DNA from: Bacillus solitudinis
GTDB taxonomy: Bacteria; Bacillota; Bacilli; Bacillales; Bacillaceae_D
DNA: 64,000 nucleotides
NCBI RefSeq assembly: GCF_002797395.1
Contig: NZ_KZ454943.1
Coordinates: 2,548,211 to 2,612,210 of the forward strand
Direction: 5' to 3'
Under the pieces are notes generated by a model. That model worked only from the letters and a program-made list of their open reading frames with translations, had not been told where the DNA came from and searched no databases. The position numbers and the translations under genes were made by a program. Shown here in pieces: positions 47,865-49,329 of this stretch (position 1 is its first letter; each line of letters opens with the position of its first letter).

Positions 47865-47998
47865 TCTGCACTTCCTTTCGAAAAGATTTCCATTCCAACC
47901 ATGCTTTTACTGTGCGTTAACTATAGGCATTCTATTCAAACGAAGATAAGTTTTAATATTAATCTTTCGAAGGGGAGAAGAAGGTCGAGGTGTTAACA

Positions 47999-48433
47999 AT
48001 GAGATGGGAAGATTATTCTATTCAACGTCAAATCAGAGTGAAAGCATTAGAGCGTTTACTTCAAACCGAAAGTAAAGATATACTAACTCTTGATTACTTA
48101 CTAGTTATTTCTGAAACAGAGCAAGAGCAATATTTATTAAGGCAAATAGTAAAAAGTAGAAAACAACAGTTTGATACATTAAGGAATATTTATAGGTATA
48201 TAACAAGTAACCAAGTTCAAGTGGAGCAAGAAGTTTTTCGAAAACCTGTATCTTATAAAAAGGGTCTACAGAGTCAAAGGGAAATAGTTGAACAACGACG
48301 TAATTCATTATCGGGGCTTCTTCAACAAGTGATTAACCCATATGTCATCCAATTACTGCAAGAAACTTTACATTTGAACCACTATGAAGGGATTTTATTG
48401 AGACAGCTAGAACGATATGCAGAAAAAATATAG
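47999..48433 (+). CDS. uncharacterised protein, 144 aa
   Basis: I do not recognise the family. The protein is predicted all-helical, rich in Gln, Arg, Leu and Glu, with no membrane segment or signal peptide and no Cys. The ATG at 47999 has GAGG 8 bp upstream; a GTG at 47990 would add three residues but abuts that site. The stop codon (48431-48433) is followed immediately by a perfect DnaA box. Divergent from the oxidase operon. Confidence 0.65.
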   Translation: MRWEDYSIQRQIRVKALERLLQTESKDILTLDYLLVISETEQEQYLLRQIVKSRKQQFDTLRNIYRYITSNQVQVEQEVFRKPVSYKKGLQSQREIVEQRRNSLSGLLQQVINPYVIQLLQETLHLNHYEGILLRQLERYAEKI

Positions 48434-48575
48434 TTATCCACAAGTTGATCAATTAAAAATAAAGTAATACACAGACTTATCAACATTGTCCACAGGTTGG
48501 GGATGTGTTTATACACAGGATTATAAACAAGAAAAGACTTATTTACCCACAGGTAAAATGTGAACTTGTGGGTAA
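48434..48575. promoter_or_regulatory. DnaA-box cluster
   Basis: One perfect TTATCCACA (48434-48442) and five single-mismatch boxes: TTATCAACA (48477-48485), TTGTCCACA (48486-48494, abutting the previous), TTATACACA (48509-48517), TTACCCACA (48543-48551) and its inverted copy TGTGGGTAA (48567-48575). Two-mismatch boxes lie at 48465-48473 and 48521-48529. Very AT-rich DNA follows. No dnaA or dnaN gene is adjacent. Confidence 0.75.
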
Positions 48576-48606
48576 ATATTTATTTAATAAATATGCTATT
48601 AAAGGG

Positions 48607-48636
48607 TTTACAAAGAAGTGAATAATTTGTTAAAAT
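48607..48636 (+). promoter_or_regulatory. sigma-A-like promoter downstream of the DnaA boxes
   Basis: -35 TTTACA (48607-48612), 18-bp spacer and -10 TAAAAT (48631-48636), reading toward the 48-aa gene at 48742. The surroundings are AT-rich, so this is moderate evidence. Confidence 0.5.
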
Positions 48637-48741
48637 GTTTTTAATAATAAAAAAATTAAATATGTTATTTTTATAATAAAATTGAGCGGTTGTTCAGTGG
48701 GTGCTTTAGATTTATAATCATCTTTTAGGAGGAGATTCGTG

Positions 48742-48888
48742 ATGACAGTATCAGAAAAGAAAATGATTGATGCTATGCAAAAGAAAATAGAGAAATTAAC
48801 AGTAGAATTAAATGAACTAAAAAAAGTAAATCATAATGGTTTCGAAAAAGACGAAACTAATGATTTTCTCATACAGGTATATAATTAA
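48742..48888 (+). CDS. small coiled-coil protein, 48 aa
   Basis: A short gene with an excellent AGGAGGAG ribosome site (from 48728) before ATG 48742; GTG 48739 is an alternative start. The product starts MTVSEKKMIDAMQKKIEKL. Residues 4-29 form a predicted amphipathic helix with Leu/Ile/Met spacing of a short coiled coil. The tail is acidic and then aromatic (FLIQVYN). It does not resemble Sda, although a DnaA-box cluster upstream recalls the sda promoter. A terminator follows directly. Function unknown. Confidence 0.6.
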   Translation: MTVSEKKMIDAMQKKIEKLTVELNELKKVNHNGFEKDETNDFLIQVYN

Positions 48889-48984: not shown

Positions 48985-49329
48985 TTGGAGAAGAAAAAAT
49001 GTCAGTCCGTTTGCACGGGCTTATGGGTTGGTGGAGTTGTAGCCTTATCTGTAGTGTTACTAAAAAAAGAGTGGCGCTCTAAGGTCTTTGAGGAAGCAGA
49101 AGACATTAAACAGCAGTCATCTGAAATGGTTTCTTTTATAAGAGAGAATAGACAAGGTATTTTCAATCAGGTAAAGACAACTGCCAGAGAGGTTTCGAAT
49201 GTGGTTCAAGACATAACAGAAGATATTAAAAAGCTTACTTCCACTGTAAAACACCTTAAAGAGAGATCTGAGGAAATTGTAAAAGCAACAAAAGAAGCGG
49301 CAGAAGAAGTAAAGCAATTAAAAAAGTAA
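48985..49329 (+). CDS. YtxH/DUF948-like membrane-anchored coiled-coil protein
   Basis: A 114-residue protein with one N-terminal membrane segment (about residues 8-26, LWVGGVVALSVVLL). A long, highly charged helix follows (about 35-114) that resembles YtxH or DUF948-type general stress and envelope proteins. The TTG start at 48985 has AAGGGGG upstream. Cys6 and Cys10 precede the membrane segment; they are not in a lipobox context. Role unknown; a loose family resemblance only. Confidence 0.6.
   Translation: MEKKKCQSVCTGLWVGGVVALSVVLLKKEWRSKVFEEAEDIKQQSSEMVSFIRENRQGIFNQVKTTAREVSNVVQDITEDIKKLTSTVKHLKERSEEIVKATKEAAEEVKQLKK

Follow-up and report, generated by a model that had tools for sequence, protein, structure and literature searches.

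A conserved array of DnaA boxes upstream of the promoter of a small-protein gene in Bacillus solitudinis and related Bacillaceae

What lies between a 147-amino acid (aa) open reading frame (ORF) and the gene of a 48-aa protein in Bacillus solitudinis? The stretch of DNA analyzed here (64,000 nucleotides, hereafter the window; C1:2548211-2612210 in contig coordinates) holds at this place an array of DnaA boxes, a sigma-A-type promoter, and a leader (Table 1). The region has a G+C content of 26%; the first box begins directly 3' of the stop codon of the 147-aa ORF, and the last ends 31 bp 5' of the -35 element. A first-pass annotation of the same DNA had described an AT-rich tract followed by a sigma-A-like promoter. 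The promoter holds up and has a counterpart in relatives, TTTACA-N17-TAGAAT, but the tract was misplaced, because TAATAATAA starts at 48642, downstream of the -10. The length of 48 aa holds for a start at ATG 48742; GTG 48739 is in the same frame. In the leader, the imperfect inverted repeat is possibly a TetR-type operator. The conserved repeat, TGAGCGRNTGYTCA, has a second copy at C1:2792029 (L129), 5' of a PLP aminotransferase gene; since this is the sole other intergenic match in the genome, a FadR (fatty-acid) regulon reading of the repeat is unsupported, and we dropped it.

Table 1. Features of the locus, numbered from the first nucleotide of the window
Feature	Position	Strand	Basis and remarks
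147-aa ORF, helical, upstream	47990..48433	+	No family match; missing here from several array-bearing relatives
DnaA-box array	48434..48575	.	Boxes read from sequence; kept in relatives
Inverted box pair within 11-bp perfect inverted repeat (ATTTACCCACA ... TGTGGGTAAAT)	48541..48577	.	Sequence
Sigma-A-type promoter TTTACA-N18-TAAAAT	48607..48636	+	Sequence; kept in relatives; -35 TTTACA 48607-48612, -10 TAAAAT 48631-48636
Imperfect inverted repeat TGAGCGGTTGTTCA in leader	48683..48696	.	Conserved in family f1 as TGAGCGANTGCTCA
Shine-Dalgarno AGGAGGAG	48727..48734	+	Sequence
48-aa gene (MTVSEKKMIDAM...FLIQVYN)	48742..48888	+	ORF, homologues, structure model
YtxH-like membrane/coiled-coil ORF, downstream	48985..49329	+	ORF

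How widespread is the 48-aa protein? A single-sequence search found homologues in 42 of 80 genomes, including nearly all family members. A profile search of a 348-genome sample of the order gave matches in 41 genomes, the weakest ten or so of which are probably chance, and the clear ones are confined to a few families. Among named carriers, alkaliphiles predominate (Halalkalibacter, Alkalihalophilus, Halalkalibacterium, Alkalicoccobacillus, Alkalihalobacterium, Anaerobacillus, and A. bogoriensis). The family consensus is MTVSEKKxIEEMQKKIERLxxELNELKKxxxxGFExLETDxFLTQAYN, with E22, F34, T39, L43, Y47, and N48 invariant. The predicted structure consists of a helix at residues 3-33 and a short, less certain C-terminal helix at 38-47 (mean pLDDT 78.5), and the sequences of solved structures that match the protein are mostly coiled coils. 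It has no match in Pfam or NCBIfam, and a fold search returned no significant match. Homology to Sda was considered and is not claimed: the hhalign probability is 18.6% over 9 columns (TDxFLxxAY versus SDELLIEtY), and the nine matches to the Sda family (PF08970) in this genome do not include the 48-aa protein.

Six 9-mers with at most one mismatch to the DnaA box fall within 142 bp, at 48434, 48477, 48486, 48509, and 48543 on the plus strand and at 48567 on the minus strand. The box at 48434 is a perfect match, those at 48477 and 48486 abut each other, and two further plus-strand boxes (48465 and 48521) have two mismatches. All of these sites, including the abutting pair (48477-48494) and the inverted pair (48543/48567), had been reported by the first-pass annotation, and a sequence search found each of them again. 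In the whole window there are 29 such 9-mers (≤1 mismatch), and the array is their sole cluster. Dinucleotide shuffling of 48430-48590 (20,000 rounds) yielded at most three boxes, and that once; in 60 shuffles of the window, no 150-bp stretch exceeded this number. Genome-wide, the 9-mer (≤1 mismatch) occurs 1539 times in 4.68 Mb versus 1446 times for a reversed control pattern; it is thus hardly enriched, and the clustering is the special feature. By a Poisson estimate at the genome density, six boxes in 142 bp are expected ~1e-6 to 1e-5 times per genome.

Is the array kept in other species? Between positions -480 and -140 of the 41 orthologous upstream regions, 23 carry three to seven boxes, one carries two, and 17 carry none; Markov-shuffled control sequence averages ~0.1. 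The pattern is thus nearly all-or-none—a species has either an array or zero boxes, in the latter case mostly with the promoter intact—and array-bearing relatives span four family-level groups (f1, f5, f28, and f42). The conservation check that the first-pass annotation had called for therefore came out in favor of both the boxes and the small gene, with the exception of the 17 boxless regions. In 28 named loci, box density is 7.35/kb in the -480 to -140 interval versus 0.28/kb elsewhere, and the 500-bp bin directly 5' of the gene contains 70 boxes, while the other eleven bins contain 1-7 each. Alignments show the same focus on the boxes: identity is 85% in box columns versus 47% in spacers in Halalkalibacter, and 76% versus 43% in f5/f42 (P ~1e-7 and 6e-9, values that are indicative, since columns were treated as independent but are not so within boxes). 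An unbiased 6-mer count was topped by ATCCAC, TCCACA, and TATCCA, and the motif recovered without presuming DnaA is TTATCCACA. Variation among boxes is mostly at position 5, in agreement with the published DnaA-box consensus, TTATNCACA (PMC4447404).

The arrangement of the boxes is fixed within clades, as + 21 + 21 + 13 - 12 - in Halalkalibacter and + 12 + 9 + 55 + 21 - 14 - in the bogoriensis group. Most array-bearing relatives also have the convergent pair at the promoter-proximal end. A terminator hairpin of the upstream ORF is an unlikely source of this pair, because Halalkalibacter species keep it even though their upstream gene runs in the opposite direction. Across relatives, 18 to 83 bp separate the last box from the -35, a spread that counts against one fixed activator geometry. 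Gene order around the locus is fluid: the upstream neighbor of the array may be a divergent cytochrome bd oxidase gene, the 147-aa ORF, or a hydrolase/SCP2 pair, and the 48-aa gene may be followed by the YtxH-like ORF, an MBL hydrolase, or a CoA-transferase III together with an MBL hydrolase. In relatives, the MBL-fold hydrolase gene, sometimes with the CoA-transferase III gene, lies between the 48-aa gene and the YtxH-like ORF. What remains constant is the pairing of the array with the 48-aa promoter.

Sites resembling those of other regulators were also seen in some relatives. In f5, one Anaerobacillus, and Halalkalibacterium ligniniphilum, the DNA from array to -35 contains a perfect CcpA (cre) consensus (upstream regions L079, L082, L084, L085, L086, L089, and L091, the last without an array). 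The Spo0A-box sequence TGTCGAA occurs at the upstream array edge, at about -264 to -312, in several Halalkalibacter (L064, L065, L067, L070, and L071). Neither the cre nor the Spo0A-box sequence is present in the window.

How does the array relate to oriC and to other box clusters of this genome? The dnaA gene is at C1:2022201, 574 kb from the array, consistent with the earlier remark that neither dnaA nor dnaN is close by. Here oriC is bipartite, with seven boxes upstream of dnaA and further boxes plus a DnaA-trio run (CTATTACTATTACTACTA) between dnaA and dnaN. Clusters were ranked genome-wide via pattern searches, and those named below are among the matches listed. Downstream of gcp/tsaD (C1:2322699-2323726 and on) there are about ten boxes in 290 bp, with more within 1.5 kb; as in B. 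subtilis, rlmH (yydA) and a 55-aa yyzF-like gene have boxes between them (C1:1990984); and six boxes occupy 126 bp (C1:1124198-1124323) in the convergent gap of a flavoprotein gene (ytfP-like) and leuS. We take these genes to be gcp, rlmH, yyzF, ytfP, and leuS from our reading of their translations. The ytfP-like/leuS array is on the other arm, 898 kb from dnaA. It is absent from the top B. subtilis regions of PMC4447404, a paper in which the strongest DnaA sites include gcp, yydA (rlmH), and sda. The genome has nine Sda-family loci, of which the one at C1:2974806 has a rigid three-box DnaA core (-, 75, +, 15, -); throughout the order, many sda genes are preceded by this core as well.

That DnaA binds the array is highly probable, given the identity of the sites, their degeneracy at position 5, and their resemblance to the boxes of oriC and sda. 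What the array is for is a less settled matter: linkage and architecture lead us to favor, with some reserve, control of the 48-aa promoter as its main selected role. The array has kept its place at this promoter across several families despite changes in both neighbors, which favors such control and makes it the best supported of the first-pass proposals; the protein itself is not Sda. By analogy with sda, the 48-aa gene is probably switched by the replication machinery. DnaA, probably ATP-DnaA, would load first on high-affinity boxes and then spread across the head-to-tail boxes and the promoter-proximal inverted pair, all 5' of the -35, which would stay uncovered. Transcription of the 48-aa gene would thereby be tied to the activity or level of DnaA, as at B. 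subtilis sda, and the upstream placement of the boxes suggests activation or modulation rather than simple blocking. Like every such cluster, the array would also lower the amount of free DnaA that oriC can draw on. Since 17 of the 41 promoters are boxless, most with the -35 and -10 intact, the 48-aa gene appears expressible without DnaA input. The promoter in Alkalihalophilus pseudofirmus OF4, for instance, has no boxes.

Titration is the serious rival. The array would then serve mainly to hold DnaA off oriC, and the promoter would be a bystander next to which the boxes could merely be parked. There is precedent in B. subtilis, in which deletion of all six extra-oriC clusters leads to early initiation, partly relieved when one cluster is reinserted at different locations (reviews PMC5295017 and PMC13220808). 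The array is also 556-638 kb from dnaA in the five array-bearing genomes in which this could be measured, and some orthologous promoters lack it entirely. However, two Alkalihalophilus genomes (G015 and G019) have the locus at the same distance, 561-579 kb, and no array; the array tracks one promoter through changes of neighbor on both sides; and the clade-fixed spacing and the promoter-adjacent inverted pair exceed what titration needs. We consider titration as the main role rather unlikely.

Could the boxes bind another regulator, one that recognizes a DnaA-box-like sequence? Palindromic sites are used by many regulators, and one inverted pair does lie inside an 11-bp perfect palindrome. Most boxes, however, are head-to-tail and not palindromic, the motif recovered without assuming DnaA is that given above, and the oriC, gcp, rlmH/yyzF, and sda arrays of the same genome use these same 9-mers, all of which renders this reading improbable. 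A secondary or relic replication origin, which the first-pass annotation had listed as a third, less likely option and for which a box cluster in AT-rich DNA would speak, is very unlikely: the genuine oriC, boxes, trios, and dnaA/dnaN together, is far away, no DnaA-trios were found at the array site, GC skew across the window does not switch at the array, and the TAATAATAA tract is not retained in the sister species L069. Chance clustering, to which AT-rich DNA might lend itself, is refuted by the shuffles, the conservation in relatives, and the location of the boxes just 5' of the gene. Overall, of the outcomes set beforehand as counting against the array, none of those that could be tested was observed, although some relatives have no box at all.

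If DnaA does control the promoter, what might the product do? As a long shot, we speculate that the 48-aa protein acts as a small effector whose production follows DnaA activity, a counterpart of Sda without kinship to it, and that it links replication state to carbon/acyl-CoA metabolism or sporulation in alkaliphilic Bacillaceae; in some lineages its promoter also carries CcpA (cre) or Spo0A-box-like sites. In B. subtilis, direct DnaA control is reported for only about eight gene sets (PMC8203912), and little is known of how such control evolves. The conserved, undescribed family described here is a likely DnaA target, judging from the DNA upstream of its genes. It also offers a natural series of promoters that share -35/-10 and gene, in some species with a full DnaA array and in others with none, so that the contribution of the array is directly testable.

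How does the array compare with known systems? Like datA, DARS1, and DARS2 of Escherichia coli, which tune initiation, it is a non-coding box cluster; unlike it, those loci are defined by a specific box geometry and IHF or Fis sites. Such a geometry is not expected here, because B. subtilis has neither IHF nor the datA/DARS loci (PMC13220808). As a kind of element, the array belongs, as first proposed, with the extra-oriC clusters of B. subtilis: its boxes are dense, intergenic, outside oriC, and clustered beyond chance, and the B. subtilis clusters are often at promoters. Those clusters are at sda/yqeG, ywlC, ywcI/vpr, yydA/yyzF, gcp/ydiF, and trmE. It is not the orthologue of the sda, gcp, or yydA/yyzF cluster, the three positions compared; these have arrays of their own elsewhere in the genome, and the array described here is thus additional and lineage specific. 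A close parallel is sda, a sporulation-checkpoint gene whose promoter array is DnaA-activated in B. subtilis. The two differ in the protein encoded, in spacing—that of the 48-aa array departs from the rigid core 5' of this genome's own sda—and in constancy, as the 48-aa array is missing in many relatives, while all but one of the 30 Sda loci read have boxes 5' of sda. What they share is an array of boxes in both orientations 5' of the gene of a very small helical protein, kept in relatives, separate from oriC, and placed, as at an sda-type promoter, directly 5' of a sigma-A promoter.
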